Assembly (NCBI RefSeq): GCF_964355755.1
Contig: NC_092674.1
Span: 31,732,001-31,796,000, forward strand
Source: Antedon mediterranea
Lineage: Eukaryota; Echinodermata; Crinoidea; Comatulida; Antedonidae
Direction of reading: 5' to 3'
DNA length: 64,000 bases
Shown: positions 60-64,000 of the stretch, piece by piece
How the letters are laid out: each line of letters begins with the position of its first letter
Position numbering within the stretch: the stretch's first letter is position 1
Notes under the pieces: generated by a model
Told to the model about the DNA's origin: nothing
The model's database searches: none
The model's input: the letters and a program-made list of their open reading frames with translations, nothing else
Made by a program: the position numbers and the translations under genes

Positions 60-2705
60 CTGACTTCAATCATTTGCCATTGTCCGTATGCATCACTTGC
101 AGCTTTCCTTTTCTCTCCTTTAACTGTTTCATCTTCAGTTGTACCATCCATTGTTGTAGTCTATCATGAATAAAGTAATGAACATGTTAAAAACAATCAT
201 CAATTATCTATCCTATCAATATTATTAAAACCATTGAAATGTTCCGATTGTCATTTTCATTATAAGCTCAATAGCGCATTTTTCAATAACGCATTTTTCT
301 GCAATTATTATTGCTTATGTTATCCAAAACATTTTATTACTATATATTGCTATATAGTGTTGTCTAAATTTTAAACAGTATAATTTCAAACCAGTCTTCA
401 GTATACATCACGAAGAAGCCTACTATCTAATTACAAAATGCAAGAACTTTATTAACAATAAAAACAATATAACACACTGGTTACTTGGTAAATGATTCTT
501 GTATCTATCAAAAATCCAGTTAACTAATTTACAAGATAACAATTTTTATTTTAGCTGTATATTTTTCAGACACACATTTAATGGCATTCTAGTTAACAAA
601 ATAAATTAAATGTACTACATTTGTAATGTAGATTAATTATTTAGTTTGTTTACACCAAATGGATTTATATTTACAATATGTGTAAATAAGTAAATAATAT
701 CAACTCAATCGATTCATTGTATCATAATAAAATTTAAAATGTCAAAAAATACTAATAGTTAATTCCTAATGTTTTTACTTGAATATAATTATAATAAGTG
801 GTAAAATAGCTTGCTAGAAGATATTTAAATAATATCTAAATTTTTGAAACAAAGTTTCTGATAGTTGTAACACTTATCAAAGACACTAGAACTGACCACT
901 GCATTCTCTTCTTTGTCTTGTTGTTCTGCCAAAGAAACAAAGCTTCCTGGCACTTCCCAGGTTGTTTCTGTAAATAAACAAAACAATGATAATAGGAAAA
1001 AAGACGATGTACTCAGAAAAACCAAAAATGTCTTTACAATAACCTTCTATATAATCTTCTAAAAAATTGCACATTAATTTCCCTAACATATAAAGTTATA
1101 GATTATATATAACATAAATTGCACTACTTGTATATATGTATTTTTTGTCTTTTTAACCGGATGATAATATGGTTAAAAACACTTATTTTGGTAATATCAT
1201 TTTGATTTAAAAAAAAAACCATATCATGTATAATATGATCTGAAACTACACCACAATAAAAGCAACTATTGAGTCTCTACGCTGAATACTAATTTAGGAA
1301 AATACTATGCAACTAATTAACAAAATGTTTGTTATAACTTACTAGAGGTAATTGTGTTCCAATAATATGTGTACCCCTCTTCACTAGTTGCTTCCATCCA
1401 TGTCCCAATACTTTCATTGTCTTTTACTAATGTTTCTTTTTCCTTTGCTATTCTCTGTCGGTCTTTTTCATCCTTTTTAGCTTGATCTTATACAGTAATG
1501 TAAATTAGATTTTAAACGACTTTATTTTGTGACAAACCTTACGTTGATCATAGATAATAGTTCCCTATACCTGTAATATCTCTATGTTTTGATCCATGGA
1601 GCCCAGAATAAAAAGTGGGGTTTCAACTCTGACCGTTCATATAGTGGTCAAGTCACTGAAAGTGATTTTTAGGCAAATGTTTACCTTGGTGTTCACATAC
1701 ATGAACCAAATAGGCTGTAACATTTGAATATTTGCTGGCATAATGAATACTAACCACTTGTGAAATATGTAAATAAACAACGTGAATCAAATACTGTACC
1801 TTCAAGCTGCTTCTGTTTAAATTCTGCAGAAGCAGAAACACCATACTGACTGGCTAATGATGGGTCATTCTTTAGATCTTGTTCAAATGCTTTAAGAGCT
1901 GCCTTTAAAAAAAGAAGATAGAGATGTTTAAAAGTAAAATCTATAGTAGTATATGTTTAGTATTCAGTTGATTGTAATTATCATTCATTAATTTATTATA
2001 TACCTTTTATATGTTTAGTATTCAGTTGATTGTAATTATCATTCATTAATTTATTATATACCTTTTATATGTTTAGTATTCAGTTGATTGTAATTATCAT
2101 TCATTCATTTATTATATACCTTTTATATGTTTAGTATTCAGTTGATTGTAATTATCATTCATTCATTTATTATATACCTTTTATATGTTTAGTATTCAGT
2201 TGATTGTAATTATCATTCATTCATTTATTATATACCTTTTATATGTTTAGTATTCAGTTGATTGTAATTATCATTCATTCATTTATTATATACCTTTTCA
2301 ATTGCAGCCATAGACTTTTTTGCAGCCTGTTCATCCTTGTGTTTCTGTAAACCACTTTTCCTGAGTTCATTGATTCGTTTTTCAACATTTTCTTTGTGCT
2401 TTTTTCCTCTTTCATGAAAATCTACACTCTATAAAAACAATTAATGTTATATCCAGTTGGGTATTGTTATATATAATAATAAATATATTATAAAACATAC
2501 AATCACTGCAGCATTCATACTGTAATACAACCTGTGGAAGAGATAAGGCAAAATATTGATTGATTGCAAATCCACTGCAGTGTGAATAAATAATTAGCAG
2601 CATACAGTATACTTGTTACTTAACTGCTTTGTTTTCAGCTATCCAACACTTGCAAAAGTCACAGAATTTTTTTGGCTGAGACTTCCAGTAAGTTGCCCTA
2701 GACAT
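60..2705 (-). CDS. WBP4: WBP4/FBP21-like spliceosome-associated protein, N-terminal part (3' end outside window)
   Basis: Six coding exons on the minus strand: 2625-2705, 2294-2428, 1800-1902, 1343-1486, 897-967, 60-160. All junctions are GT-AG and phases agree, giving 211 codons before the gene leaves the window. The N-terminus carries the U1C-type zinc finger of WBP4 (YWKSQPKKFCDFCKCW, then HERGKKHKENV), followed by a charged helix, then a WW domain (GTWMEATSEEGYTYYW ... TTWEVPGSF), then the conserved DAYGQWQMIEV segment. In vertebrates WBP4 sits in the pre-B/B spliceosome and its WW domains bind proline-rich splicing factors. Vertebrate WBP4 has two WW domains; only one is visible here. 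The start is the first ATG before YWKSQ, matching the family N-terminus. Intron 2 holds a 58-bp tandem array that begins at the exon-2 donor. Confidence 0.9.
1951..2298 (-). repeat. 58-bp tandem array, 6 copies, carrying the WBP4 exon-2 splice donor
   Basis: Six near-identical 58-bp units start at 1951, 2009, 2067, 2125, 2183 and 2241. On the minus strand each unit includes AAAAG followed by GTATATAATAAATG, which is the last five bases of WBP4 exon 2 plus its donor and start of intron. The copy nearest the exon is the real donor (2294/2293); the others lie downstream inside the intron as duplicates. Copies differ by only one or two bases (cattaat versus cattcat), so the expansion looks recent. 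Confidence 0.9.
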
Positions 2706-9400: not shown

Positions 9401-12400
9401 GAAAGGAAAGGATTTTGGTTAGTACACAATTTATAGTTCTGGGATTTTGTATTTTCATTGATTTGAATATGTTGTGGAAACTATAAGTTTGTGCAGAGGC
9501 TGTAATTTCACTTTTAATTAGGGAAGCATTGATGATAAATAACTGTTTCTTTATATTAATTGTCTAGGTCCCTGTGCCTATTGTAATATGTGGAAAAGTG
9601 TACATTTCATGTCGTACTGTAGGCGCTACCCATTCTGCAGTGTGTCTTGTACAAAGAAGTTTGCAGTTTGTAAAAAGGAAAAAGGTGAATTGCAGGAGAA
9701 ATCACCAGACCACTCTCCATATGCTAAGAATCTTCAGGTATTGGTTTAAACTTTACTTAGACACACACACTCAATATGCTAAGAATCTTCAGGTATTGGT
9801 TTATACTTATAACCACTTTCTATATTCTAAGAATCTTCAGGTATTGGTTTATACTTATAACCACTTTCTATATTCTAAGAATCTTCAGGTATTGGTTTAT
9901 ACTTTACTTAGACACACACACTCAATATGCTAAAAATCTTGAGGTATTGGTTTATACTTATAACCACTTTCTATATTCTAAGAATCTTGAGGTATTGGTT
10001 TAAACTTTACTTAGACACACACACTCAATATGCTAAGAATCTTGAGGTATTGGTTTATACTTATAACCACTTTCTATATTCTAAGAATCTTGAGGTATTG
10101 GTTTATACTTTAATTATTTATTCTCTGTACTAAGTGCAAAAGACAGTATTTGCATCAGCATGATAATTTTAAGTAACATAATAATTAAAAAATTTGTCTA
10201 TAGGTACCAACATTGTTCCCTCAAGACCGTGCCAAACCGCTGTTCCCTGCTCATGAGGGTGGAAGTAAAGTGGCGGCCATTTGTAGCCAGAATGGTCTTC
10301 AAACGTTCAGTTGGACAAGGTACCTTGAATCTGAATGCTCTGAAGCTGCTCCCATTAAATGCTTCCATCATGTAAGTATACTTATGTGTAACGAAATATT
10401 AAGAAGGTTATTTTAATGTGTTATAACAATATACTACTGATCATCTACTGTACTATATATATAAAGATATTGTACATTATCAAATGGAATCTAATTAAAA
10501 AAACAGAAACAACCTATATTTATAATATGGTTTTGACTATACTGTAGGCACCAATGTTTAAGGAGTGGAAATCCTCAATGTTGAGTGCATTAATTGAAGT
10601 TAACAACAGAGATGGTGGAGAAGATAAAGATTATTTTTGGATTGCTAGGATAGTACAGGTTGCTGGTAAGGTTTTTATGAAAACTCATTCTTTTGAATAT
10701 TATAATCTATATTTATTTTGTGTATACTGTAATACTTAACCTGGATAAAATAATTATTGTGGGTCAATCCTGCTACTGGTCCTCACCATCTCATCTATCT
10801 AAATAATTATTGTGGGTCAATCCTGCTACTGGTCCTCATTATCTCATCTATTTAAATAATTATTGTGGGTCAATCCTGCTACTGGTCCTCATTATCTCAT
10901 CTATTTAAATAATTATTGTGGGTCAATCCTGCTACTGGTCCTCACCATCTCATCTACTTATATAATTATTGTGGCTCAATCCTGCTACTGGTCCTCACCA
11001 TCTCATCTATTTAAATAATTATTGTGGGTCAATCCTGCTACTGGTCCTCACCATCTCATCTATTTAAATAATTATTGTGGGTCAATCTTGCTACTGGTCC
11101 TCACCATCTCATCTATCTAAATAATTATTGTGTGTCAATCCTGCTACTGGTCCTCACCATCTCATCTATTTAAATAATTATTGTGGGTCAATCCTGCTAC
11201 TGGTCCTCACCATCTCATCTATTTAAATAATTATTGTGGGTCAATCCTGCTACTGGTCCTCACCATCTCATCTATTTAAATAATTATTGTGGGTCAATCC
11301 TGCTACTGGTCCTCACTATCTCATCTATTTAAATAATTATTGTGGGTCAATCCTGCTACTGGTCCTCACCATCTCATCTATTTAAATAATTATTGTGGGT
11401 CAATCCTGCTACTGGTCCTCACCATCTCATCTATTTAAATAATTATTGTGGGTCAATCCTGCTACTGGTCCTCACCATCTCATCTATCTAAATAATTATT
11501 GTGGGTCAATCCTGCTACTGGTCCTCACCATCTCATCTATCTAAATAATTATTGTGGGTCAATCCTGCTACTGGTCCTCACCATCTCATCTATTTAAATA
11601 ATTATTGTGGGTCAATCCTGCTACTGGTCCTCACCATCTCATCTATTTAAATAATTATTGTGGGTCAATCCTGCTACTGGTCCTCACCATCTCATCTATT
11701 TAAATAATTATTTATTGTGGGTCAATCCTGCTACTGGTCCTCACCATCTCATCTATTTAAATAATTATTTATTGTGGGTCAATCCTGCTACTGGTCCTCA
11801 TTATCTCTTCTATTTTATTAATTATTGTGGGTCAATCCTGCTACTGGTCCTCACCATCTCATCTATTTAAATAATTATTGTGGGTCAATCCTGCTACTGG
11901 TCCTCACCATCTCATCTATTTAAATAATTATTGTGGGTCAATCCTGCTACTGGTCCTCACCATCTCATCTATTTAAATAATTATTGTGGGTCAATCCTGC
12001 TACTGGTCCTCATTATCTCATCTATTTAAATAATTATTGTGGGTCAATCCTGCTACTGGTCCTCACCATCTCATCTATTTAATTAGTTAGTTAGTGTCAG
12101 GCGTTATAAGTACTTGTTCTGCCAAGCTGGGATAAAAGATTAAAATCAAATTTTTTTGTATAAATATTTGTTTTTGTTTATTTTTTTTCTTTTTACTTAG
12201 GTTATAAAGCTTTACTTCGGTTTGAAGGGTATGGTATTGACAGTTCCAAAGACTTTTGGGTTCATCTATGCAAGATTGAATGCTACCCAGTAAATGGAGC
12301 AGAAAAAGTAGGCAGGAAGCTCAGACCCCCTAAAGGTACATGATTATTAATATTAACACTTAAATCAAGTATATTGAGTATAGTGAGTGGCCGAGCGGTT

Positions 12401-19570: not shown

Positions 19571-19603
19571 TGTTATTCGGTGGAACTCTGCACGTATTTA
19601 ATC

Positions 19604-22798: not shown

Positions 22799-22831
22799 TG
22801 TTATTCGGTGGAACTCTGCACGTATTGAACA

Positions 22832-25800: not shown

Positions 25801-26196
25801 TATGTATTTTACTAAATTCAGAATATATTAAAACCGAGGATAAAAAAAATCTTTTACGATCGGATTAAAATACTCACATGGAACATTTTAGTTGCAAAGA
25901 GTGAGTTGCATTATTAATAATTCTAAACACATATAATAATTATTCATAAATTGATGTTAGTAGGCCTATTTAAATGTTTTTTTTTAATTTTAGATGTTTC
26001 ATCTGGTGCGAGCAAGGACTGGGGCTATGTCGAACTAGGTGCTACGTATTCATACACCGTCGAACTACGTGATACTGGAACTTACGGGTTCCTTCTACCA
26101 GAACACCAAATACAGCCGTCAGGCATTGAGACTTACGAAGGAGTGAAGGCTATGGGGCGCTTCATTCTGAATGAAATAAACAAGCTTAACAATTAA
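22832..26196 (+). CDS. Secreted M14A metallocarboxypeptidase, copy 2 (predicted acidic-residue specificity)
   Basis: Nine exons: 22832-22899, 22983-23064, 23164-23382, 23512-23613, 23859-23966, 24207-24317, 24546-24636, 25482-25778, 25994-26196; 426 aa. Exon sizes equal copy 1 except the last, which adds Lys-Leu-Asn before the stop. All catalytic residues are kept, and the specificity Lys (GASKDW) is also kept. Differences from copy 1: GIHAREW (the usual family form) for GIHSREW, NVDGY for NADGY, DWHSYRQ for DWHSYSQ, GYVEL for GYVGL. The HSYRQ change places Arg at bovine position 199, in the substrate-binding strand next to the zinc ligand His196, so activity may differ. No stop or frameshift is present, so both genes look functional. 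Confidence 0.95.
24704..25425. mobile_element. TA-flanked inverted-repeat element (Tc1/mariner-type MITE) in copy 2 intron 7
   Basis: The 722-bp element is absent from the same intron of copy 1. Copy 1 reads AAAATATAGGCCTATATACC; in copy 2 the TA is duplicated around the element (24702-24703 and 25426-25427). Ends are inverted repeats: CTGTAAAACCTCGAAAAG at left and CTTTTCGAGGTTTTACGG at right, continuing into AAGCCCATGGGCTT. Inside are further copies of the CTCGAAAAGAAGCCC motif on both strands (24736-24870, 25300-25410). No transposase is encoded. TA duplication points to the Tc1/mariner/pogo group. Confidence 0.88.
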
Positions 26197-38300: not shown

Positions 38301-41300
38301 TGAATTTGCTTCTCTACTTATTTGTGTAGTTTGATGTCTTGATACTGCTGTATATATACTGAATTTGCTTCTCTATTTATTTGTGTAGTTTGAAGTCTTG
38401 ATACTGCTGTATATATACTGAATTTGCTTCTCTATTTATTTGTGTAGTTTGATGTCTTGATACTGCTGTATATGTACTGAATTTGCTTCTCTATTTATTT
38501 GTGTAGTTTGAAGTCTTGATACTGCTGTATATGTACTGAATTTGCTTCTCTATTTATTTGTGTAGTTTGTAGTCTTGATACTGCTGTATATGTACTGAAT
38601 TTGCTTCTCTATTTATTTGTGTAGTTTGTAGTTTGTAGTCTTGATACTGCTGTATATGTACTCAATTTGCTTCTCTATTTATTTGTGTAGTTTGTAGTCT
38701 TGATACTGCTGTATATGTACTGAATTTGCTTCTCTATTTATTTGTGTAGTTTGAAGTCTTGATACTGCTGTATATGTACTGAATTTGCTTCTCTATTTAT
38801 TTGTGTAGTTTGAAGTCTTGATACTGCTGTATATGTACTCAATTTGCTTCTCTATTTATTTGTGTAGTTTGTAGTCTTGATACTGCTGTATATGTACTGA
38901 ATTTGCTTCTCTATTTATTTGTGTAGTTTGAAGTCTTGATACTGCTGTATATGTACTCAATTTGCTTCTCTATTTATTTGTGTAGTTTGTAGTCTTGATA
39001 CTGCTGTATATGTACTGAATTTGCTTCTCTATTTATTTGTGTAGTTTGTAGTCTTGATACTGCTGTATATGTACTCAATTTGCTTCTCTATTTATTTGTG
39101 TAGTTTGTAGTCTTGATACTGCTGTATATGTACTGAATTTGCTTCTCTATTTATTTGTGTAGTTTGAAGTCTTGATACTGCTGTATATGTACTGAATTTG
39201 CTTCTCTATTTATTTGTGTAGTTTGAAGTCTTGATACTGCTGTATATGTACTGAATTGCTTCTCTATTTATTTGTGTAGTTTGAAGTCTTGATACTGCTG
39301 TATATGTACTGAATTTGCTTCTCTACTTATTTGTGTAGTTTGATGTCTTGATACTGCTGTATATATACTGAATTTGCTTCTCTATTTATTTGTGTAGTTT
39401 GAAGTCTTGATACTGCTGTATATATACTGAATTTGCTTCTCTATTTATTTGTGTAGTTTGATGTCTTGATACTGCTGTATATGTACTGAATTTGCTTCTC
39501 TATTTATTTGTGTAGTTTGTAGTCTTGATACTGCTGTATATGTACTGAATTTGCTTCTCTATTTATTTGTGTAGTTTGTAGTCTTGATACTGCTGTATAT
39601 GTACTGAATTTGCTTCTCTATTTATTTGTGTAGTTTGAAGTCTTGATACTGCTGTATATGTACTGAATTTGCTTCTCTATTTATTTGTGTAGTTTGTAGT
39701 CTTGATACTGCTGTATATGTACTGAATTTGCTTCTCTATTTATTTGTGTAGTTTGTAGTTTGTAGTCTTGATACTGCTGTATATGTACTCAATTTGCTTC
39801 TCTATTTATTTGTGTAGTTTGTAGTCTTGATACTGCTGTATATGTACTGAATTTGCTTCTCTATTTATTTGTGTAGTTTGAAGTCTTGATACTGCTGTAT
39901 ATGTACTCAATTTGCTTCTCTATTTATTTGTGTAGTTTGAAGTCTTGATACTGCTGTATATGTACTCAATTTGCTTCTCTATTTATTTGTGTAGTTTGTA
40001 GTCTTGATACTGCTGTATATGTACTGAATTTGCTTCTCTATTTATTTGTGTAGTTTGAAGTCTTGATACTGCTGTATATGTACTGAATTTGCTTCTCTAT
40101 TTATTTGTGTAGTTTGTAGTCTTGATACTGCTGTATATGTACTCAATTTGCTTCTCTATTTATTTGTGTAGTTTGTAGTCTTGATACTGCTGTATATGTA
40201 CTGAATTTGCTTCTCTATTTATTTGTGTAGTTTGAAGTCTTGATACTGCTGTATATGTACTGAATTTGCTTCTCTATTTATTTGTGTAGTTTGAAGTCTT
40301 GATACTGCTGTATATGTACTGAATTGCTTCTCTATTTATTTGTGTAGTTTGAAGTCTTGATACTGCTGTATATGTACTGAATTTGCTTCTCTACTTATTT
40401 GTGTAGTTTGATGTCTTGATACTGCTGTATATATACTGAATTTGCTTCTCTATTTATTTGTGTAGTTTGAAGTCTTGATACTGCTGTATATATACTGAAT
40501 TTGCTTCTCTATTTATTTGTGTAGTTTGATGTCTTGATACTGCTGTATATGTACTGAATTTGCTTCTCTATTTATTTGTGTAGTTTGAAGTCTTGATACT
40601 GCTGTATATGTACTGAATTTGCTTCTCTATTTATTTGTGTAGTTTGTAGTCTTGATACTGCTGTATATGTACTGAATTTGCTTCTCTATTTATTTGTGTA
40701 GTTTGTAGTTTGTAGTCTTGATACTGCTGTATATGTACTCAATTTGCTTCTCTATTTATTTGTGTAGTTTGTAGTCTTGATACTGCTGTATATGTACTGA
40801 ATTTGCTTCTCTATTTATTTGTGTAGTTTGAAGTCTTGATACTGCTGTATATGTACTGAATTTGCTTCTCTATTTATTTGTGTAGTTTGAAGTCTTGATA
40901 CTGCTGTATATGTACTCAATTTGCTTCTCTATTTATTTGTGTAGTTTGTAGTCTTGATACTGCTGTATATGTACTGAATTTGCTTCTCTATTTATTTGTG
41001 TAGTTTGAAGTCTTGATACTGCTGTATATGTACTCAATTTGCTTCTCTATTTATTTGTGTAGTTTGTAGTCTTGATACTGCTGTATATGTACTGAATTTG
41101 CTTCTCTATTTATTTGTGTAGTTTGTAGTCTTGATACTGCTGTATATGTACTCAATTTGCTTCTCTATTTATTTGTGTAGTTTGTAGTCTTGATACTGCT
41201 GTATATGTACTGAATTTGCTTCTCTATTTATTTGTGTAGTTTGAAGTCTTGATACTGCTGTATATGTACTGAATTTGCTTCTCTATTTATTTGTGTAGTT

Positions 41301-44300
41301 TGAAGTCTTGATACTGCTGTATATGTACTGAATTGCTTCTCTATTTATTTGTGTAGTTTGAAGTCTTGATACTGCTGTATATGTACTGAATTTGCTTCTC
41401 TACTTATTTGTGTAGTTTGATGTCTTGATACTGCTGTATATATACTGAATTTGCTTCTCTATTTATTTGTGTAGTTTGAAGTCTTGATACTGCTGTATAT
41501 ATACTGAATTTGCTTCTCTATTTATTTGTGTAGTTTGATGTCTTGATACTGCTGTATATGTACTGAATTTGCTTCTCTATTTATTTGTGTAGTTTGTAGT
41601 CTTGATACTGCTGTATATGTACTGAATTTGCTTCTCTATTTATTTGTGTAGTTTGTAGTCTTGATACTGCTGTATATGTACTGAATTTGCTTCTCTATTT
41701 ATTTGTGTAGTTTGAAGTCTTGATACTGCTGTATATGTACTCAATTTGCTTCTCTATTTATTTGTGTAGTTTGTAGTCTTGATACTGCTGTATATGTACT
41801 GAATTTGCTTCTCTATTTATTTGTGTAGTTTGTAGTCTTGATACTGCTGTATATGTACTGAATTTGCTTCTCTATTTATTTGTGTAGTTTGAAGTCTTGA
41901 TACTGCTGTATATGTACTGAATTTGCTTCTCTATTTATTTGTGTAGTTTGTAGTCTTGATACTGCTGTATATGTACTGAATTTGCTTCTCTATTTATTTG
42001 TGTAGTTTGTAGTCTTGATACTGCTGTATATGTACTCAATTTGCTTCTCTATTTATTTGTGTAGTTTGTAGTCTTGATACTGCTGTATATGTACTGAATT
42101 TGCTTCTCTATTTATTTGTGTAGTTTGAAGTCTTGATACTGCTGTATATGTACTGAATTTGCTTCTCTATTTATTTGTGCACCTTTTGTAGTGTCACACA
42201 TCTTTTTATGTGGGAAATATATTTCAGCTATTTGTTATATTTTATTTCTTTTTTTTGTTTCTTTGTTGCAGTGTTGGATCATGTGAAACATCTCTTAGAT
42301 CTGCTGGTGGTTCGTGGTCTGTTAGAAGACCAAAGACACCTGATACATCAATGAAAACATCCCCTAGATCTGCTGGTGGGCCGTGGTCTATTAGAAGATC
42401 AAAGACCCCTGAAGCATCAATAAAGAAAAAATGGAACACAGCTAAGGTAAACAAACAATCCAATGATTTCTTGAATATGTATAATTTCTACATCTATTAC
42501 ATGTTTCAGATGGTAGATTGATTAAATCCAATAATTTTATTTTTAGCCCAGTGATCATAATCAACGTGTTCCGCAAGCAGCTAGTCATGTGACCACAATG
42601 ATCCACCCACAGACAATAGCTTCAATGGTAGTTGTCAATCATCTTGGAACTGGGAAACGTCGACTAAGATCTCGAATGGGGAATATTAATGGCATGTTCT
42701 TGGACGATGTGAGTAACATTGTATGTATAGATACACATTAAAATTTGAATTTCTAAAATGTTTACTACAATTTTAACAATAACTACAGTATTATGAAATC
42801 AAGTTTTCCAATTCAATTTCTTTTTTTTAAGGAGGTTTCTGATATTGCTGGGAGCATGGAGTTTGTTCCCATCATTAACCCTGCTCCTATTCAAGGTACT
42901 TTTTAGTAATTAATTTTAAAACATTATGCTGGTTAACTAATGATATAATTATGTTGATAATTATAGTTTATGAGCACCGTTAAATTTGTTGGTTTTCTGT
43001 TTCAGGTCGGGCACAGAACAACACTGGCAGGTAATTGTATTGTATTATTACTACTGTTCATTTATTCATTTCTATAATTTTTTGAAAATGTTCGAAAACC
43101 AATTCTGTTCTTTGATATAGGGAAAACCATGATGTAGATCAAAATGATAATTCAGAGAATGGTGAGGGTGGTGACTCTGTAATTGATGACATTGATAGTA
43201 GCAGGATAAGTACAGCGCCCTCACTAACATCGGAGATTGGTCATTTGGATGAAACAAATGAACTTGATTATCACATAAATGGAGAGCATGCATCTCCCGC
43301 AGACAAAGTAGTTGAAACAGAAAAACAATATTCTGTATCAGTTAATACACCCTCACAATTAACAGAAGGAATCTATTGTAAAAACATGTCAGAAACAGAC
43401 TCCAAGAATATCAGGGAACAATTTTTAGAGAATTTATGCCATCAAGAGGATTTGTTTGTTGTAAATGATGGATTGAGAGAGGAGAAAGACGAAACAAGTA
43501 GCTATTGGAGTACAAATGAGGTTGAAGGTACAAGTAGCTATTGGAGTACAAATGAGGTTGAAGGTACAAGTAGCTATTGGAGTACAAATGAGGTTGAAGG
43601 TACAAGTAGCTATTGGAGTACAAATGAGGTTGAAGGTAGTGAAAAATAGAAGCGGGCTCATAAATGCACTGATACACTAATTTGTTATGCTTCAGTTATT
43701 TATTTTGTTATTTTTGTTACATTATTATTATTATGTTTTTTAATAACATTTAATGATTTCATTTGTTTTGCATTTGCATCATTGCACCATGTCATTCACT
43801 TTTGCTTTGAGACCATCTCACACAAAGAATGTAAGAAGCTGATTTATTTGCTCATTACCCTGCAGTCAATCATGCTACATGTTTTGTGTGTATTGTCAGG
43901 AATTTTATATTATAACTTGATAATGTTAACATAATTTATCCATCAAAATATCATGAACCAATTGCTTTTAAATATCATTTCAAGATAAAATATAGGCAAT
44001 GTTTAATGCTTAATGAAAAAATGAAAACCATCTAGTTGACAGAGGCATTAATATATTATGTTTAAACCAGGTACAGTATGAACATTAACATTTTTTTGAA
44101 TTATTGGATGGTTATCAGCTATTAAACTTGCATGCTTTAATTTGTTTGTTTTTAAGTTTAGTTATGTGTTTTATGCCGGACATTTGGTATCATACTCACT
44201 AAGTTAGCTAGTAATGGTTACTTGACCATACGTTTATGGAGTACTGACAGTTGATGGATTTTATCTGTCGCTTTAAACGTCAAACACTTATTTGTAAATA

Positions 44301-47300
44301 ATTGATTTTTTTAGCACTTTATTCAATATTTCATTATTTAAACATTATAATAATTGCTTTGTAACTATATTCATATCATGTTGTGTTACTTGTATAGCAT
44401 TTTGCACCAAATTCTCTTAAAGACCAGGTGCAGGCCTTTGATCATAGTACTGTATCACTTAGGTTTGGGGATAGATAACCCAGTAAATAATTCCTATTCA
44501 TATGTACATACACATTGTAACAGTGTGTGAAAAAACAGATGACTATACTGTTCTGCGCTAAGTATAGCTAGTAAACATGTCATAACTAAATATATTTTAT
44601 AAACATAATTGAAGAAGTAATACCAATTGCAGTTTTAATGATTGTACAGTAAAAACGTTAAATGTGTCTGTAAAGCAGTAAATAATCCCTTTTAAGTAGA
44701 AAATGGACACTCAAAACTGCAGCAGTCTGTTGGATCACAATTGTTTTATATGGAAGAACCTAAGCTGCCGAGCAGAACATTGACGTGTGGACAAAAAAGA
44801 GAAGTAAAACTGCAAACAGATCATGACAAAAGTGAAATGAGATTTCATGGTGAAGGATTTATACCATCAGGTAAGTACTGTTTATACTGTTATTAAATTG
44901 TTAAATGATTGGAAGTTGTATGAAGGAAAGTATGTTTTTAGTTGTAGTGGACAGTTTAGTATCACTACAGTATATCCAGGAGTTTGTAGTGTAGGAAGCA
45001 TTTATAAGGTAAGGCCAAGTAAGATGAGGAATAATCTTTTACTGTACATTGTTTTATAATTATTATTTTAGTGTATATAGGACTGACAGATGAACACAGA
45101 ACAGCATTGATGACACATCCAACAGGGGTTGCTAAGTCTATGCTTAAGTTTGATGTCATGATGCCTCATGTACAAAAGATGCCCCTGACACCAAGGAAGA
45201 GTTCACAAACAACAAGTCCAGTTAGCAATAATTCATCTAGCCATCAATATTTACCTACTTCAAGTGGAAAATCTAGCCTTCATTCATCACCAAATTCAAA
45301 TGAAAATGTTTGTTGTCAATCATTACTGATGCAGGTCCCCAGCCCTGAGCAAACCAGTAGGGTTGTTTCTTCATCACCCTCAGGTTTTGATCATCTTTAT
45401 CTAGAAGAATATTCAACTAAAAAACAACAATTCAAACTAAAAGATAATCAAAAAATGCCTCCACAGATTCTTATCAAACGACCGTCTTCTGCCCCTGTTT
45501 TTAATAATTCTGAGCCTGATGCAATGAATATGTTTAGACCTGTTTCACCAGATAATCAGTCCACCCGTGGAAGAAGGTTGAATTCCCCTCATTTAGCTGT
45601 GTCATCACCTGTTGCTGTACGACCTACATCTGCAAGAGCTAAGCTTAGAGGAAAGGAATGGAATGGTCGACCTTTACCTATTTTTGGAGCTTCAAAAGTA
45701 ATTTTATAATGCATAACATACAATAATAAATATATAATATACTGTATGAGGTACAGCAGATATTGCTAAATGTTAAAAGGAACACATTCTTCATGATCTA
45801 GTGCGGTATGAAACTCAACTTAGTCTCACGACGATCTTATTGTTTTCTACTAGGTTAGAGATGATTTGGCTGTACAAAGAAGTAAACAAGCCAGGGAGTC
45901 TGTGAACATCCGACACCTGTTTTCAAATAAGGCAAGTAGGCAGTACTTGAAGGAGAAGGAACGTCATGAACGATTGAAATGGGAGAAAATGCAACGCAAG
46001 AATGAGGACGATTTTAGGTAAAACATAACACATGGCCACTATGTGTGCAAAACTCCAGTTTACACTAGTGTCATAATTATACACAATGTATTAAATAGTC
46101 AGTAGTTGTTTTAAATCTACTATTCTGTTGTAGAATAAACCAAGAGGAATTGTGGAATAGGAATTTAGCACTTATGAATCGTGGGGACATAGCATACCGT
46201 AATTGGGAGAAAGAATATATGGCAGATAAAGCACAACGTGAAAAGATGAGACTTCAAAAGATGAATGTTCTGTTGCACAAGTAGGTATCAATATCGTAGA
46301 CTTTTCAATCTTATATTTTAAATAATAGTTAATATCTGCATTTACTTAAATTTATATTAAATATACTGTATGTACTGTATACTGTATATCATAATATATT
46401 TTCAGGCAAGCTCTTCAGAATAGGAAGGCACTTGCATACCTAAAGCGCATTGGACCCCATGTTGATGTCTGGGAGTAAGTATTCCTTGAAATTAAATTGT
46501 ATGTTGATATTACATTAATATTTAGTTTCATTAGTATTAGTATTTAAATGAGTAGTTTTTGACTGAAGTGTTTTACTTGTTGGTAGGTTGTTTCATGGAG
46601 AGAAACGAGGAATCAGTAAAGTACAAATGAAATGTGCTGCTATAACACTGCAGAAGTAAGTTTTTGTACACATACAAAGATTACAGAATTTTTGAAACAT
46701 ACATTCAAATATTTAAAGAAACATATTTAAGAGTACCATGATCACAATATTATGTTGCAAAAATAATTCATTAGAAAAAATGTATTCAATTTATCGCAAC
46801 AAATCAAAATAACTGAACATTGTGATCGCTACCAATCCCCTTTGATTCGTGACATTCACATTATCCTATATGTAAACATTGTGATCAATACCAATTCCCC
46901 TTTGATTTGTGACATTCACATTGTCTTATATGTAAACATTGTGATCGCTACCAATCCCCTTTGATTTGTGACATTCACATTGTCTTATATGTAAACATTG
47001 TGATCGCTACCAATCCCCTTTGATTTGTGACATTCATATTATCTTATATGTAAACATTCTGATCAATACCAATCCCCTTTGATTTGTGACATTCACATTG
47101 TCTTATATGTAAACATTGTGATCGCTACCAATCCCCTTTGATTTGTGACATTCACATTATCTTATATGTAAACATTGTGATCAATACCAATCCCATTTGA
47201 TTTGTGACATTCACATTATCTTATATATAAACATTGTGATCAATACCAATCCCCTTTGATTTGTGACATTCACATTGTCTTATATGTAAACATTGTGATC

Positions 47301-50300
47301 GCTACCAATCTTACCTTTGATTTGTGACATTCACATTATCTTATATGTAAACATTGTGATCGCTACCAATCCCCTTTGATTTGTGACATTCACATTGTCT
47401 TATATGTAAACATTGTGATCAATACCAATCCCCTTTGATTTGTGACATTCACATTGTCTTATATGTAAACATTGTGATCGCTACCAATCCCCTTTGATTT
47501 GTGACATTCACATTATCTTATATGTAAACATTGTAATCGCTACCAATCCCCTTTCATTTGTGACATTCACATTATCTTATATGTAAACATTGTGATCGCT
47601 ACCAATCCCCTTTGATTTGTGACATTCACATTGTCTTATATGTAAACATTGTGATCAATACCAATCCCCTTTGATTTGTGACATTCACATTGTTTTATAT
47701 GTAAACATTGTGATCGCTACCAATCCCCTTTGATTTGTGACATTCACATTATCTTATATGTAAACATTGTGATCGCTACCAATCCCCTATCATTTGTGAC
47801 ATTCACATTATCTTATATGTAAACATTGTGATCGCTACCAATCCCCTTTGATTTGTGACATTCACATTATCTTATATGTAAACATTGTGATCAATACCAA
47901 TCCCCTTTGATTTGTGACATTCACATTATCTTATATATAAACATTGTGATCGCTACCAATCCCCTTTGATTTGTGACATTCACATTATCTTATATGTAAA
48001 CATTCTGATCAATACCAATCCCCTTTGATTTGTGACATTCACATTGTCTTATATGTAAACATTGTGATCGCTACCAATCCCTTTTGATTTGTGACATTCA
48101 CATTGTCTTATATGTAAACATTGTGATCGCTACCAATCCCCTTTGATTTGTGACATTCACATTATCTTTTATGTAAACATTGTGATCAATACCAATCCCA
48201 TTTGATTTGTGACATTCACATTGTCTTATATGTAAACATTGTGATCAATACCAATCCCCTTTGATTTGTGACATTCACATTGTCTTATATGTAAACATTG
48301 TGATCGCTACCAATCCCTTTTGATTTGTGACATTCACATTGTCTTATATGTAAACATTGTGATCAATACCAATCCCCTTTGATTTGTGACATTCACATTA
48401 TCTTATATGTAAACATTGTGATCGCTACCAATCCCCTTTGATTTGTGACATTCACATTATCTTATATGTCAACATTGTGATCGCTACCAATCCCCTTTGA
48501 TTTGTGACATTCACATTGTCTTATATGTAAACATTGTGATCGCTACCAATCCCCTTTGATTTGTGACATTCACATTATCTTTTATGTAAACATTGTGATC
48601 AATACCAATCCCATTTGATTTGTGACATTCACATTGTCTTATATGTAAACATTGTGATCAATACCAATCCCCTTTGATTTGTGACATTCACATTATCTTA
48701 TATGTAAACATTGTGATCGCTACCAATCCCTTTTGATTTGTGACATTCACATTGTCTTATATGTAAACATTGTGATCAATACCAATCCCCTTTGATTTGT
48801 GACATTCACATTATCTTATATGTAAACATTGTGATCGCTACCAATCCCCTTTGATTTGTGACATTCACATTATCTTATATGTCAACATTGTGATCGCTAC
48901 CAATCCCCTTTGATTTGTGACATTCACATTGTCTTATATGTAAACATTGTGATCGCTACCAATCCCCTTTGATTTGTGACATTCACATCATCTTATATGT
49001 AAACATTGTGATCACTACCAATCCCTTTTGAGTTGTGACATTCACATTATCTTATATGTAAACATTGTGATCGCTACCAATCCCCTTTGATTTGTGACAT
49101 TCACATTATCTTATATATAAACATTGTGATTGCTACCAATCCCCTTTGATTTGTGACATTCACATTATCTTATATATAAACATTGTGATCAATACCAATC
49201 CCCTTTGATTTGTGACATTCACATTGTCTTATATGTAAACATTGTGATTGCTACCAATCCCCTTTGATTTGTGACATTCACATTATCTTATATGTAAACA
49301 TTGTGATCGCTACCAATCCCCTTTGATTTGTGACATTCACATTATCTTATATGTAAACATTGTGATCGCTACCAATCCCCTTTGATTTGTGACATTCACA
49401 TTATCTTATATGTAAACATTGTGATCGCTACCAATCTATTCTTACCTTTGATTTGTGACATTCACATTATCTTATATGTAAACATTGTGATCGCTACCAA
49501 TCTTACCTTTGATTTGTGACATTCACATTATCTTATATGTAAACATTGTGATCAATACCAATCCCCTTTGATTTGTGACATTCACATTATCTTATATGTA
49601 AACATTGTGATTGCTACCAATCCCCTTTGATTTGTGACATTCACATTATCTTATATGTAAACATTGTGATCGCTACCAATCCCCTTTGATTTGTGACATT
49701 CACATTGTCTTATACAGTATGTAAACAGTGTGATCGCTACCAATCCCTTTTGATTTGTGACATTCACATTATCTTATATGTAAACATTGTGATCGCTACC
49801 AATCCCCTTTGATTTGTGACATTCACATTGTCTTATATGTAAACATTGTGATCATATCAATACCAATCTTACCTTTGATTTGTGACATTCACATTATCTT
49901 ATATGTAAACATTGTGATCGCTACCAATCCCCTTTGATTTGTGACATTCACATTATCTTATATATAAACATTGTGCTCAATACCAATCCCCTTTGATTTG
50001 TGACATTCACATTGTCTTATATATAAACATTGTGATCGCTACCAATCCCCTTTGATTTGTGACATTCACATTATCTTATATGTAAACATTGTGATCGCTA
50101 CCAATCCCCTTTGATTTATGACATTCACATTGTCTTATATGTAAACATTGTGATCGCTACCAATCCCCTTTGATTTGTGACATTCACATTATCTTATATG
50201 TAAACATTGTGATCGCTACCAATCCCCTTTGATTTGTGACATTCACATTATCTTATATATAAACATTGTGATCGCTACCAATCCCCTTTGATTTGTGACA

Positions 50301-52465
50301 TTCACATTGTCTTATATGTAAACATTGTGATCGCTACCAATCCCCTTTGATTTGTGACATTCACATTATCTTATATGTAAACATTGTGATCATATCAATA
50401 CCAATCTTACCTTTGATTTGTGACATTCACATTATCTTATATGTAAACATTGTGATCGCTACCAATCCCCTTTGATTTGTGACATTCACATTGTCTTATA
50501 TGTAAACATTGTGATCGCTACCAATCTTACCTTTGATTTGTGACATTCACATTGTCTTATAATTATATATAAACATTGTGATCAATACCAATCTTACCTT
50601 TGATTTGTGACATTCACATTATCTTATATGTAAACATTGTGATCAATACCAATCCCCTTTGATTTGTGACATTCACATTGTCTTATATATAAACATTGTG
50701 ATCAATACCAATCCCCTTTGATTTGTGACATTCACATTGTCTTATATGTAAACATTCTGATCGCTACCAATCCCCTTTGATTTGTGACATTCACATTATC
50801 TTATATGTAAACATTGTGATCGCTACCAATCCCCTTTGATTTGTGACATTCACATTGTCTTATATGTAAACATTGTGATCGCTACCAATCTTACCTTTGA
50901 TTTGTGACATTCACATTGTCTTATAATTATATATAAACATTGTGATCAATACCAATCTTCCCTTTGATTTGTGACATTCACATTATTTTATATGTAAACA
51001 TTGTGATCAATACCAATCCCCTTTGATTTGTGACATTCACATTGTCTTATATATAAACATTGTGATCAATACCAATCCCCTTTGATTTGTGACATTCACA
51101 TTATCTTATATGTAAACATTGTGATCGCTACCAATCCCCTTTGATTTTTGACATTCACATTATCTTATATGTAAACATTGTGATCGCTACCAATCCCCTT
51201 TGATTTGTGACATTCACATTATTTTATATGTAAAGTTGACATTTAATCATTTCTGTTAGGTATCTACGAGGCATGATTGTAAGAAGGAAATTTGAGGCAG
51301 TGAGGTTGAAGTCACAAGTGCATGCCAGTACTTTTAAGAAGTTTCTAGATTACTATTGTGCAATGATGAAACGTATTGCTCGTCGCTATCTTGTCAATAA
51401 ACCACGCATCCATTTTGATCTGTGGCAATTGGATGATTTCATGGAAAGAAAAAGACGTAATTTACATTTTTCAAAATTCTATTTCAAATTAACAAAAAAG
51501 ACTTGCAAATGTTGAAGAATGTTGTATAAACGCAAATTACCTTACAGTTTTATTTTATTATTATTATTAGACTATGAATATGTGTTTGCAAAGCAAGCTC
51601 ATCCTGGTGATGAATTAGAAGTTAAAGATTTAGAGGTCTACTTCAAAGAATGTGACCATTATCCATCCATCACAGAAATGCATGATGCCATCAAGCATGT
51701 CACCAAAAGTAAGTTGTTTTGCTATCAATGAAATTCACAATTTACTGAAACTTTACAAACAATTCTCATATAACAAGAATGAAATTGCGTATAATTAGTA
51801 CACATTGTACCTTGCACAATAATGAAAAATGCCGCACTCTTTATGTCACATGGTTTCTATAGAGTATTTATTGAATATCATAACTCACAATCCTTTAATC
51901 AAATTTTATAAAAATATAGCAATTTATGGTGAAATGCATAATTATGACAATATTTCGTTAAATTATTAGAAGATGCACAGAAACCAGGATTAAAGTTAAA
52001 AGAAGCAGAAGTCGTTGAAATATCCTTCCAAATATATGTACCACCTGGCTGTGGCTTAACTACAGATAAAACTCGCAAATCAACATGGCTAAACCCACTT
52101 GTTAAAGGTGTGGAAGCTAGAAGGCTTATGGGTAAGATAACAAACCGCAGATTACATTTTTATTTAAATAATATTCTGACTTTTTATTGGTTGAGGTCTT
52201 GTAACGGTATTGTATTGTACATCCATAGTATTCCTACTGTTGTAACACCAAAGTAGAGACCCAAATAATGAAGCTACCAATAATGTTTAAAATAAGTACA
52301 CTCAATTTATTAAAATATACATTGTTAACCCCTTTATAAATGTACAAACAAAATCTTACAGGAAGCAGTGAGGTTGAAGAGGCTCAGTTAAGAAGGTCAA
52401 TGGCACTGGTGTTTAGTACTTTCAGAGAAAGAAAAGATAAAGAAGCAATGGAAATAAAACAGTAA
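29324..52465 (+). CDS. Large IQ-motif protein, unrecognised family, 27 coding exons
   Basis: Exons: 29324-29410, 29555-29721, 30263-30347, 30555-30812, 30898-31059, 31181-31409, 31537-31767, 31863-32028, 32135-32234, 33321-33469, 34376-34540, 34642-34683, 42272-42446, 42547-42708, 42832-42895, 43006-43030, 43121-43635, 44700-44870, 45072-45697, 45854-46017, 46134-46280, 46406-46474, 46587-46655, 51260-51456, 51571-51708, 51970-52131, 52362-52465. All phases agree; about 1542 aa. The N-terminal two thirds is low-complexity, Ser/Pro/Asn-rich, with PASTW-type and KTP repeats. The C-terminal third is helical and conserved-looking: a basic coiled-coil (YLKEKERHERLKWEKMQRKN), WELFHGEKRGISKVQ, an IQ-like calmodulin-binding motif (ITLQKYLRGMIVRRKF), then an acidic segment (FKECDHYPSITEMHDAIKHV). 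Intron 11 uses a GC donor (34541). I do not recognise the family; a ciliary or cytoskeletal role is only a guess. AATAAA lies at 52474, just after the stop. Confidence 0.8.
32262..33207 (+). repeat. Two-form minisatellite (about 69-bp, then about 44-bp units) in IQ-gene intron 9
   Basis: The left half is units of about 68-70 bp joining ATTGTGTGTACCAATATACT, CATCATGCTGTTTATCATCA and GTACATGCAATATAAAAACT-GTATGGAAC. From about 32760 the units lose the last 25 bases and continue as 44-bp copies. So the short form arose by an internal deletion that then spread. Long open frames on both strands across this stretch follow from the repeat and are not genes. Confidence 0.95.
33420..34190 (+). repeat. 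66-bp tandem array duplicating the end of IQ-gene exon 10 with its donor, 12 copies
   Basis: The true exon 10 ends AGCTCACCTGTGCCACCTCC-AAACAGTTACAGACCTGCAT-CCACATG/GTAAGT at 33469/33470. Eleven further copies follow every 66 bp (GCCTATTTAAT at 33478, 33544 and so on to 34138). Each has a TATTTAATAG acceptor-like site, a 45-nt copy of the exon end and, in most copies, an intact donor (lost at 33668). The 45-nt segments are a multiple of three and match the reading phase. The 308-codon open frame across the array is in a different frame from the exon. Confidence 0.93.
35010..42180 (+). repeat. 7.2-kb minisatellite of 59-bp units (about 121 copies) with higher-order structure
   Basis: Unit: TTTGAAGTCTTGATACTGCT, GTATATGTACTGAATTTGCT, TCTCTATTTATTTGTGTAG. 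Variants (GAAG/GTAG/GATG; TGAA/TCAA; one-base deletions) recur in blocks. A marker copy with an 8-bp duplication (GTTTGTAGTTTGTAG) occurs at 37671, 38621, 39748 and 40698, spaced 950, 1127 and 950 bp, showing 16- and 19-unit higher-order repeats. It lies wholly within intron 12 of the IQ gene and ends about 90 bp before the next exon. Confidence 0.97.
42272..42446 (+). repeat. 69-bp coding duplication within one IQ-gene exon
   Basis: The exon encodes two consecutive 23-residue copies, TSLRSAGGSWSVRRPKTP and TSPRSAGGPWSIRRSKTP, each ended by DTSMK or EASIK. The basic Arg-Arg-x-Lys-Thr-Pro core could be a phosphorylation site. The duplication is older than the nearby minisatellites because the copies differ at several codons. 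Confidence 0.85.
43491..43636 (+). repeat. 36-bp coding tandem repeat (4 copies) at the end of an IQ-gene exon
   Basis: Four identical 12-residue units (TSSYWSTNEVEG) end the 43121-43635 exon. Each unit contains GAAG/GTACAAGT, and the last GAAG/GTAGTG is the predicted donor. All have the same phase, so choice among donors would remove whole units in frame. If no donor is used the frame stops four codons later at 43649. Copies are identical at DNA level, so the array is recent or homogenised. Confidence 0.9.
43650..44699. other. Intron 17 of the IQ gene (about 1 kb, no other feature)
   Basis: AT-rich sequence without repeat array, transposon or coding signal. It could also serve as 3' UTR of a short isoform that uses the stop at 43649; weak AATAAA-like sites are present but none stands out. 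Confidence 0.4.
46795..51233 (+). repeat. 4.4-kb minisatellite of 59-bp units (about 75 copies) in the intron splitting the IQ motif
   Basis: Unit: ATTGTGATCGCTACCAATCC, CCTTTGATTTGTGACATTCA, CATTATCTTATATGTAAAC. Two main variant positions (CGCT/CAAT and TTATC/TTGTC) are mixed along the array. A LATTACC variant (CAATCTTACCTTTG) recurs from 47310 on and longer-range blocks repeat around 48160-48950. It starts about 140 bp after the exon ending ITLQK and ends about 25 bp before the exon starting YLRGMIV, so the IQ motif depends on splicing across it. Confidence 0.97.
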
Positions 52466-59547: not shown

Positions 59548-60392
59548 CTTCTACATACAAAATAGAGTTACCACCATTATTTTTAATTTGTATTTTGCAC
59601 CTTAGAATTGATTCTTTAATTGCCAAAGCACACCATCCATGCCATGCAATACCATACAATACTGTTTTTGTTTACATTTGTCGTCATGAAAACCGACCCA
59701 GTGCGAGTGTTGTGTGACGCGTATGTGTTTTTAATGATATTTTGACGTTGGCGGCGCGCTGCTGTTGAGACATTTTTGTCAAATAATTTAATAAAAATTA
59801 TTTCTTTCATTCATGTTAGTACAATTTAGCTCTGTAATAAACTGAATAGGCTTAGATTTAGCCTATATTACTATTAGTTAACTAATATAATAATGGAAAG
59901 GTAGGCCTATGCCTAGCCTAGAATCGTAAGCCTAGCTAGGCCTAGGCCCTAGGCCTAAATAGGAGGCTAGGCCAAACTAGACTCTCTACTAATTAAGTAG
60001 CCTAGTAGGCTAGTCTAGACTAGTACTAGTAAGGCCTCCGAGGAGGCCGCCTAGGCTAGCCTTCTGTTTTGGTCTTTTTAGAGTATCTAGGCCTAGGCTA
60101 GGTAGGCTAGTATTAGAGGCTTGAAGGAGGCTGGTAATAACATGTACTTGATATCATTTTATATATTTTGCAGTTTTGTTTATATTTTAGAGTTTTAGTA
60201 CGGCAATGCAATGTACTGTATATATTGTAGTAGTAGGCCTAGTTGTAGTAGTAGGCCTATACATCTTTCTTATTCTTATTTTCTTTGTAGGTGCATTAAT
60301 GGATAAACCACAGTAGGCCTACTAATCAATTTGTTCTTATGTTTTCTATATCATCATAATCATCATCCTCAGTTTCCTTCTTAGACAGAGAC
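59548..60392. promoter_or_regulatory. Divergent promoter interval of the FAM47-like gene and KIF3A
   Basis: 845 bp separates two head-to-head start codons. It contains CpGs near 59730-59760 (GACGTTGGCGGCGCGCTGCTG) and a dense CTAGGCCTAGG palindrome field (59880-60110), with more TAGGCCTA copies at 60235, 60250 and 60315. A TTTCCTTCTTAG acceptor at 60384 implies an upstream non-coding KIF3A exon. Core promoter elements are not identifiable with certainty. Confidence 0.5.
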
Positions 60393-63300
60393 ATGACAGT
60401 AAGTATTAATGTCAATCAGAGACGATTCAGCCCACTTTTGGCCTAACGTCCCATTTTATTTTTAGTGTGCTGAAAGTGTAATCCCCGGTGTAATCAAATT
60501 GATATAAGAGTAAATAAAAATGTTATGAAAAGTCCATCAAGTTACTGCATACAATTGACTGGAAACCTTGAGTTCTTTTAAAAATGTTTGTTTCATGTGC
60601 ATATGGTATTTATGTTATTATTTTTAATAAAAATGAGAATAATAAAGGTATAAATACACAAGATACCTAAAAAAAGAGAACCCTAAAAATAACCCTAACC
60701 CAATTATTTTGTTGACACTAGAGATTGTTATTATAAAAAAAAAGTTCTATTTACTTTGTGAATGAACTTAAATTTATTATTATTTAACACAGATTAGTTT
60801 AAAAAAAAAGAAACTTAAATTAATTTTATTTATTCATTACTAGAACAAAGACAAGGATACTGTTCAAGTGGTGGTTCGCTGCCGTCCACTCAATGAAAAG
60901 GAAAAAGCAAAAGGTTTTAAAATGGCAGTGAAAGTTGATGAGGCGCTTGGACAAATTCAGGTGACAAATCCCAATGCCCCTGCGGGAGAACCCGCTAAAA
61001 CCTTTACATTTGATACTGTGTTTTCTCCAACCTCAAAACAAGTGGATGTTTATAACCAAACTGCCAGGCGCATTGTTAATGCTGTACTTGAGGGTTACAA
61101 TGGTAAAGACAATTATATAATTTAATAAAGATGATGTGTTTACTATACTAAGCTAAGAATGTTTACACTGGTTGCAATATGTATAATTCATTCTCTATGT
61201 TTATTCTTCATTATTTTTAGGTACAATTTTTGCATATGGGCAAACAGGGACTGGAAAGACATTCACAATGGAGGGTGTACGCTCACAGCCAGAGCTAAGA
61301 GGAATTATTCCAAACTCGTTTGCACATATATTTGGACATATTGCAAAGGCAGAAGAGAAAACACGTTTTCTAGTTAGAGTTTCTTATTTAGAAATCTACA
61401 ATGAGGAGATACGAGATTTGCTGAGCAAGAATCAGTCATCTAGGCTTGAGGTAAAATATATTTTATTGTTTACTTGTGAATAAATAAATATATTAATCAT
61501 TTGATATTTGTTTTACCTAAATTTGTACAGTAGAATTGAGTGTGTTTGACAAATACTTAAGCTATTCTTTATTTAAAGGTTAAAGAAAGACCTGATGTTG
61601 GTGTCTATGTGAAGGACTTGTCTGCATTTGTTGTCAATAATGCTGATGATATGGATAGGATCAATACAATTGGAAATAAAAATCGTTAGTATTTGTATTT
61701 GGTAGACTTGACTTGATTGTCTTAATACAACACCCATATACAGTTTGAAGATAGTAGGATTGACTCCACATACAATACATAGTCCATCATTCAGTATAAT
61801 GTAACTTGATTGCATTAGATTGTTGATTTTATTTAAGGATCTGTGGGGTCTACAAACATGAATGAACAAAGTTCAAGATCACATGCCATCTTCACCATAA
61901 CAGTGGAAAGAAGTGATGAAGGACTTGATAAAGAGCAGCATGTCAGGGTTGGAAAGTTGAACCTTGTAGATTTAGCTGTGAGTTAATTCATTGCAACAGT
62001 TCCTTTTATTATTCATATATTGCCATTTTAATTTATTATTTGTAGAGTTTTGAGAGGCAGTCAAATTATTGTTGGCTTTATTATTGATAATTTATTATGT
62101 GTAGAGTTCTGAGAGGCAGTCAAATTATTGTTGGCTTTATTATTGATATTGCTGTTGTAATTTATTATGTGTAGAGTTCTGAGAGGCAGTCAAATTATTG
62201 TTGGCTTTATTATTGATATTGCTGTTGTAATTTATTATGTGTAGAGTTCTAAGAGGCAGTCAAATTATTGTTGGCTTTATTATTGATATTGCTGTTGTAA
62301 TTTATTATGTGTAGAGTTCTGAGAGGCTGTCAAATTATTGTTGGCTTTATTATTCATATTGCTGTTGTAATTTATTATGTGTAGAGTTCTAAGAGGCAGT
62401 CAAATTATTGTTGGCTTTATTATTGATATTGCTGTTGTAATTTATTATGTGTAGAGTTCTAAGAGGCAGTCAAATTATTGTTGGCTTTATTATTGATATT
62501 GCTGTTGTAATTTATTATGTGTAGAGTTCTGAGAGGCAGTCAAATTATTGTTGGCTTTATTATTGATATTGCTGTTGTAATTTATTATGTGTAGAGTTCT
62601 AAGAGGCAGTCAAATTATTTTTGGCTTTATTATTCATATTGCTGTTGTAATTTATTATGTGTAGAGTTCTAAGAGGCAGTCAAATTATTGTTGGCTTTAT
62701 TATTGATATTGCTGTTGTAATTTATTATGTGTAGAGTTCTAAGAGGCAGTCAAATTATTGTTGGCTTTATTATTCATATTGCTGTTGTAATTTATTATGT
62801 GTAGAGTTCTAAGAGGCAGTCAAATTATTGTTGGCTTTATTATTGATATTGCTGTTGTAATTTATTATGTGTAGAGTTCTGAGAGGCAGTCAAATTATTG
62901 TTGGCTTTATTATTCATATTGCTGTTGTAATTTATTATGTGTAGAGTTCTAAGAGGCAGTCAAATTATTGTTGACTTTATTATTGATATTGCTGTTGTAA
63001 TTTATTATGTGTAGAGTTCTGAGAGGCAGTCAAATTATTGTTGGCTTTATTATTCATATTGCTGTTGTAATTTATTATGTGTAGAGTTCTGAGAGGCAGT
63101 CAAATTATTGTTGGCTTTATTATTCATATTGCTGTTGTAATTTATTATGTGTAGAGTTCTGAGAGGCAGTCAAATTATTGTTGGCTTTATTATTCATATT
63201 GCTGTTGTAATTTATTATGTGTAGAGTTCTAAGAGGCAGTCAAATTATTATTGGCTTTATTATTGATATTGCTGTTGTAATTTATTATGTGTAGAGTTCT

Positions 63301-64000
63301 GAGAGGCAGTCAAATTATTGTTGGCTTTATTATTCATATTGCTGTTGTAATTTATTATGTGTAGAGTTCTGAGAGGCTGTCAAATTATTGTTGGCTTTAT
63401 TATTGATATTGCTTTTGTAATTTATTATATGTAGAGTTCTAAGAGGCAGTCAAATTGTTGTTGCCTTTTTCATTCATATTGCCATTATATGATTATTTGT
63501 AGGGTTCTGAGAGGCAGTCAAAAACTGGTGCATCTGGGCAGCGTTTGGTGGAAGCTACAAAAATCAACTTGTCTTTATCAACATTAGGAAATGTAATCTC
63601 ATCATTGGTAGATGGTAAAAGTACACACATTCCATACAGAAATTCAAAACTTACCAGACTACTGCAAGACTCTCTTGGAGGGAATGCTAAAACTGTTATG
63701 GTAAGTTTTACAAGAATTCCATTACATTTGTTATTAATTATACTTATTAACTTGCCAATGTATACTTTGATTTGTTCAAAAAGGATAGTTTGTAGCAAGA
63801 TTCTTGTATTTCATTTGTTTGCAGTGTGCAAACCTAGGGCCAGCGGAGTACAACTATGATGAAACAATAAGTACATTGAGGTATGCTAATCGGGCAAAGA
63901 ACATAAAAAACAAAGCCAAGATTAATGAAGATCCAAAAGATGCTCTACTCAGACAGTTCCAAAAGGAAATTGATGATCTTAAGAAGAAACTTCAGGATGG
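60393..64000 (+). CDS. KIF3A: KIF3A, kinesin-2 motor subunit (motor domain; 3' end outside window)
   Basis: Exons: 60393-60398, 60844-61102, 61221-61450, 61579-61684, 61838-61977, 63503-63700, 63825-64000 (continues). Phases agree. The frame covers the whole motor: [14 protein letters not shown]-loop [13 protein letters not shown], the KIF3A-type [20 protein letters not shown], switch [14 protein letters not shown], switch [54 protein letters not shown], and the start of the neck coiled coil ([15 protein letters not shown]). Kinesin-2 (KIF3A/KIF3B/KAP) moves intraflagellar-transport trains to the ciliary tip. All nucleotide-binding residues are present. The first exon (only Met-Thr before the donor) is inferred from phase and from an acceptor just upstream. 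The intron that splits DLA/GSER carries a 70-bp array copying the acceptor. Confidence 0.95.
62036..63480 (+). repeat. 70-bp tandem array duplicating a KIF3A 3' splice site and exon start, about 21 copies
   Basis: Unit: TGCTGTTGTAATTTATTATG, TGTAGAGTTCTGAGAGGCAG, TCAAATTATTGTTGGCTTTA, TTATTGATAT. Each copy contains TTATTATGTGTAG/AGTTCTGAGAGGCAGTCAAA, matching the real acceptor and first 19 bases of the GSERQSK exon (TTATTTGTAG/GGTTCTGAGAGGCAGTCAAA at 63503) except for G to A at the first base. The array runs from 60 bp after the previous donor up to the real exon. Splicing to a repeat copy would read [13 protein letters not shown] and stop. Confidence 0.95.

Follow-up and report, generated by a model that had tools for sequence, protein, structure and literature searches.

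Minisatellites consist of head-to-tail units of about 10-100 bp in variable number, and some are known at splice sites. In the human gene IFI6 (6-16/G1P3) a minisatellite provides multiple splice donor sites (Turri, Cuin & Porter 1995, NAR 23:1854, as summarised in PMC4526556 and PMC2572611). In human segmental-duplication genes, internal tandem repeats lie at exon-intron boundaries and have been reported, with RNA support, to form novel introns (De Grassi & Ciccarelli 2009, PMC2812944). A further system is intron gain through tandem genomic duplication of AGGT segments (Hellsten 2011; Gao & Lynch 2009; reviewed in PMC3443670; for potato see PMC4974935).

The arrays described here, from the crinoid Antedon mediterranea, add to the known splice-site minisatellites and boundary repeats. 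Their units are mostly 36-90 bp long and present in 2-121 copies, with 1 to 8 among the myosins discussed below. As in IFI6, a minisatellite at the end of an exon carries a plausible donor in each unit, and exon 17 of the IQ gene is the nearest match, since its donors are all in frame. However, the IFI6 donors are, according to those summaries, proven to be used in mRNA, while most of the extra Antedon donors would lead to stops. Further, many genes are affected here.

In the myosins of contig C3 the copy number of boundary arrays varies among recent paralogues, as in the segmental duplications. The arrays do not make a novel intron, however: the single-copy myosins already have the donor and the start of the intron, and internal acceptor-like sites are weak. 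With AGGT intron gain the arrays share a tandemly duplicated stretch with a splice-site-like junction, but what is copied is an existing junction and what is lengthened an existing intron, and the copies are donors or acceptors instead of a new bounding pair. The array sits inside the intron with the opposite splice site outside the unit, so the duplicates do not bound a new intron between them. This form of intron gain does not apply, since paralogues with a single copy have these introns already.

The window is the whole stretch of 64,000 nucleotides that was analysed, C5:31732001-31796000 in a genome of 354 Mb and 18 contigs. Gene models were built manually with GT-AG boundaries (one GC donor), and a single open frame was demanded through all exons. 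Frames are unbroken across the junctions of 15 exons in SFMBT, 27 in the IQ gene, nine in a carboxypeptidase, six in a kinesin-2 and three in part of WBP4. We take the kinesin-2 to be KIF3A, as did an earlier reading of this DNA (the original prediction). Its alignment to the solved KIF3B (3b6u) is gapless over the array-bearing junction, 'LNLVDLAGSERQ'. Pfam finds zf-U1 in WBP4 and an MBT repeat in SFMBT, further on than the array-bearing exon; in the IQ gene the IQ motif scores slightly below the cut-off. Exon 11 of the IQ gene (34376-34540) is followed by an apparent GC-AG intron, CAG/GCAAGT, with which the frame agrees.

Table 1. Tandem arrays of the window and the exons whose splice sites they copy. 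A slash in a motif marks the exon-intron border; the intact column gives copies with the splice dinucleotide.
Feature	Position	Strand	Exonic part	Intact	Basis
WBP4 array, 58-bp x 6, most of an intron; donor AAAAG/GTATAT in each copy, exon-attached copy at 2294	1950..2298	-	5 bp (2294-2298)	6/6	TRF, frame
WBP4 exon with copied donor (zf-U1 protein)	2294..2426	-			Frame continuity, Pfam zf-U1
SFMBT array, 48/55-bp x 8, part of exon 3 and donor	~9709..10116	+	~28 bp	8/8	TRF, copy scoring
SFMBT zinc-finger-like exon, donor at 9737	9568..9737	+			Frame
IQ-gene exon-10 array, 66-bp x 11-12, exon and donor	33420..34190	+	50 bp	10/11	TRF; GT in aligned copies
IQ-gene exon 10	33321..33469	+			Frame
IQ-gene exon-17 array, 36-bp x 4 coding repeat (GTSSYWSTNEVE), ends at exon-17 donor; donors GAAG/GTA	43494..43638	+	Nearly all	4/4	TRF, frame, copy scoring
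IQ-gene exon 17	43121..43635	+			Frame
KIF3A array, 70-bp x ~21, acceptor and exon in each copy; AGs counted with the real one	~62036..63522	+	~20 bp	22/22	TRF, copy scoring
Kinesin-2 (KIF3A-like) exon GSERQSKTG..., real acceptor preceding 63503	63503..63700	+			Frame, KIF3B alignment
Comparison: 53-bp x 25 array, intronic only	10748..12089	+			TRF
Comparison: 69/44-bp array, intronic only	32270..33206	+			TRF
Comparison: 59-bp x 121 array, intronic only	35011..42179	+			TRF
Comparison: 59-bp x 74 array, intronic only, end ~26 bp short of exon	46816..51234	+			TRF, gene model
Comparison: 69-bp x 2 repeat, entirely within IQ-gene exon 13, in frame	42286..42421	+			TRF, gene model

Tandem Repeats Finder (TRF), covering periods up to 500 bp, finds about 11 arrays in the window whose units measure 36 bp or more (Table 1). 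Five of them touch a splice junction, the junctions being fixed by continuous reading frames. The original prediction described five arrays whose repeat unit contains the junction. Five arrays at five junctions are indeed present, and in SFMBT, IQ exon 10 and KIF3A the unit joins intron to 20-50 bp of exon; the WBP4 array, however, takes in hardly any exon, and the exon-17 array, a coding repeat of 12 residues, has only 3 bp of intron. Among the extents first proposed, that at IQ exon 10 stands, while the other four are revised in Table 1. The three arrays said to be free of exon sequence are intronic, but one further intronic array (32270-33206) and the exonic, in-frame repeat in exon 13 had been left off that list, which changes the denominator of any test against chance.

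The two intronic arrays of 59-bp units lie in one gene; they have equal unit length and unrelated sequence. A dispersed or transposon-derived unit was ruled out: the SFMBT array is found at a single place in the genome, and for the other units all of the matches listed fall in the window.

By position-weight score, the extra copies in the five junction arrays are mostly close to the exon-attached site. All six WBP4 donors score 7.5, and the three upstream donors of IQ exon 17 score 5.4 versus 6.5. In WBP4, SFMBT and IQ exon 10 a message that reads on through the first donor would run into a stop after 1-12 nt, so that a full-length protein would come only from the exon-attached donor. Only IQ exon 17, among the four donor arrays of the window, keeps the frame at every donor, and splicing there could change the number of 12-residue repeats. 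Judged by the reading frame, the copy in use is presumably the exon-attached one. This agrees with the original prediction, which made one terminal copy the functional site in every array, but an end copy adjoins the exon by geometry anyway. Mini-exons formed from an internal acceptor-like site and a copied donor, in frame at 21, 39 and 42 nt in IQ exon 10 and CCT7, were considered and ruled out, as the internal acceptors score at most 5.5 against a median of 9.1 for real ones.

How many junction arrays should be expected by chance? Collapsing each array to one unit leaves 47 kb of the window with about 178 exon ends, and a unit placed at random overlaps a junction about 19% of the time. This gives an expectation of 2.1-2.2 junction arrays among 11, where five are seen (P(>=5)=0.042, uncorrected for the window having been chosen because of these arrays). 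The claim that five junction arrays would rarely arise by chance was therefore wrong in degree. As the window was picked for its junction arrays, a separate sample was drawn for the test.

The independent sample comprises loci around kinesin, myosin-head and CCT exons, three gene families located with Pfam profiles, and amounts to 62 merged loci and 235 kb. Its junctions are predicted, not RNA-supported; they were called with a small gene finder that had learned from the gene models of the window and that, in a leave-one-gene-out test, recovered 71 of 82 true junctions. On inspection, the gene-finder hits inside the arrays of L045, L006, L052, L059 and L051 and of the L088-L070 locus were rejected as spurious. 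There are 39 distinct arrays, assigned to classes by eye, with the class of one exonic array (28 bp x 2, L034) uncertain.

In this sample there is no excess of arrays on junctions: nine are found against 7.2 expected under random placement (P=0.29), and the expectation ranges from 7.3 to 10.7 over four gene-finder stringencies. The overlap above random that the original prediction looked for is thus absent from these 235 kb. In contrast, arrays in exon interiors are clearly depleted, with one against 7.3 expected (P=0.003), and 29 arrays lie elsewhere against 24.5 expected. Introns are short and splice junctions closely spaced, at 3-5 per kb, and these gene regions carry roughly one array every 5 kb.

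The donor arrays of the sample are found in CCT7 (three arrays), another CCT gene (L086), a kinesin (L002), a myosin (L035) and the C3 myosin cluster, and the acceptor arrays in two further myosins (L044 and L033). The GT is intact in 13 of 13 copies in L035 and eight of eight in the myosin L056, both with scores near those of real sites, but in only two of seven in L086. No multiple-of-three rule was found in the unit lengths of junction-spanning arrays, which fits extra copies that are removed by splicing and not translated; both coding arrays (36 and 69 bp) have a unit length that is a multiple of three.

The most informative comparison is among the myosins. At C3:19.6-25.2 Mb (L047-L053, L055, L056, L058-L061), 19 or more myosin heavy-chain genes, almost identical to one another, are spread over 5.5 Mb, and the copies differ in minisatellites with units of 49, 83 and 42 bp. 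A genome-wide search finds the donor motif at 19 paralogues, of which 14 have one donor, three have two, one has three and one has eight. Seven of the sampled genes have one donor followed by a plain, unduplicated intron; in L048, L051 and L058 part of the exon end recurs behind the single donor, making about 1.3 copies, and the remaining ones have 2, 3 or 8 full units of 82-83 bp. From the sequences, introns with about 1.3 copies appear to be an intermediate in the copy-number series. At the breakpoint, which lies away from the junction, intron '...attcca' runs into exon 'CTGACAATAAA...' with a microhomology of about 2 bp. The event is a local tandem duplication taking in about 64 bp of exon and 19 bp of intron, after which the array presumably grew.

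CCT7 (eta subunit; L082, C4:29705175-29708369) has three separate arrays within 3.2 kb, with units of 87, 85 and 90 bp. They are independent, each copying the donor of a different exon.

In our reading, the arrays are probably minisatellites in which the initial tandem duplication often took in a splice border and was tolerated. The process would start with tandem duplication of a 36-150 bp stretch, which would often include an exon-intron border because introns are short and junctions dense. Once two copies are present, the array may grow or shrink by unequal exchange or slippage. A junction-spanning duplication would survive because one complete exon keeps its splice site, while the remaining copies turn intronic; the gene models do show the whole exon joined to a single copy of the site. 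Duplications in exon interiors would be purged by selection unless in frame. Survival at junctions together with purging in exons would leave junction coverage about random and exon interiors far rarer. The two counts of the sample match this, and the idea in the original prediction that duplication at junctions is tolerated holds up. Rather than a special system, the junction arrays thus appear to be accidents that a genome rich in repeats tolerates.

Some observations count against such a neutral origin. The window excess is one; the near-perfect splice-site scores of the extra copies in most arrays are another, but these are equally explained by recent origin and homogenisation. Further, the arrays of WBP4, L002 and IQ exon 17 have their start or end no more than 5 bp from the junction, and the array of L086 also has only few exon bases in common, which is slightly more often than uniform breakpoints would give.

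A position-blind model does not predict the ratio of donors to acceptors either, which is 11 to 3 over window and sample (two-sided P=0.057), and this points to a possible bias in tolerance, where duplications over donors outlast those over acceptors. Donor choice favours the exon-proximal site, and acceptor choice favours the first AG after the branch point. A duplicated donor would then still give the normal mRNA from its exon-proximal copy, while an upstream duplicate acceptor would meet the scanning spliceosome first and add intron sequence with stops; the donor excess would follow from these two rules. A decoy acceptor in KIF3A would indeed add an in-frame stop within about 15 codons (reading from 62105 onward). 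However, KIF3A holds all its intact acceptors side by side, and in the independent sample alone the ratio has P=0.18, so the bias is suggestive only. Such tolerance is a serious candidate, if short of the probable one. Its strict form, an asymmetric filter in which donor-spanning duplications are about neutral and pile up as intact-donor arrays, acceptor-spanning ones are purged and introns lengthen from their 5' ends as units of exon end and donor are copied, we consider doubtful.

The original prediction also proposed a mechanism by which tandem duplication starts at junctions. Such a mechanism would be mutational, triggered for instance by damage at 5' splice sites, by R-loops there or by AGGT microhomology. 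The window excess and the few breakpoints close to junctions speak for it, but most units reach 20-64 bp into the exon, and the myosin breakpoint lies elsewhere and has only about 2 bp of microhomology. We dropped it as the leading reading because the independent sample has no excess, and regard it as very unlikely.

Selection for redundant or alternative sites, also suggested originally, would mean that extra copies make isoforms or bind U1 snRNP. The copies retain intact sites, and IQ exon 17, whose four in-frame donors would vary the number of 12-residue repeats, recalls human IFI6. Outside that exon, however, read-through or use of a decoy would mostly lead to premature stops, the internal acceptor-like sites needed for mini-exons score poorly, and most myosin paralogues do with a single donor, which makes such selection highly improbable. 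An assembly artefact, with repeats collapsed or invented, is hardly credible, since the array copies bear distinct variants, like arrays occur in many unlinked genes and copy number is graded over paralogues.

Seen as tolerated duplications, the arrays gauge how often splice sites are copied by plain tandem duplication where genes are dense and repeats abundant. They suggest that the spliceosome may tolerate many intact extra donors next to the real site, essential genes such as CCT7 included. Among the myosin paralogues there is a ready series, with 1, 2, 3 and 8 donors at one junction, for studying donor choice among identical neighbours. Repeats at exon ends should not be taken as selected without a null model of junction density.

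The window also contains a tandem pair of carboxypeptidase-like genes (19604-22178 and about 22834-26196), almost identical in both exons and introns and both free of junction arrays. An element inserted in an intron of the second gene, at 24700-25420, carries the motif TCTCGAAAAGAAGCCCA as inverted repeats. A remnant of a non-LTR retrotransposon, with endonuclease- and reverse-transcriptase-like frames and an internal stop, is found at about 53650-56220 between exons of a minus-strand gene.
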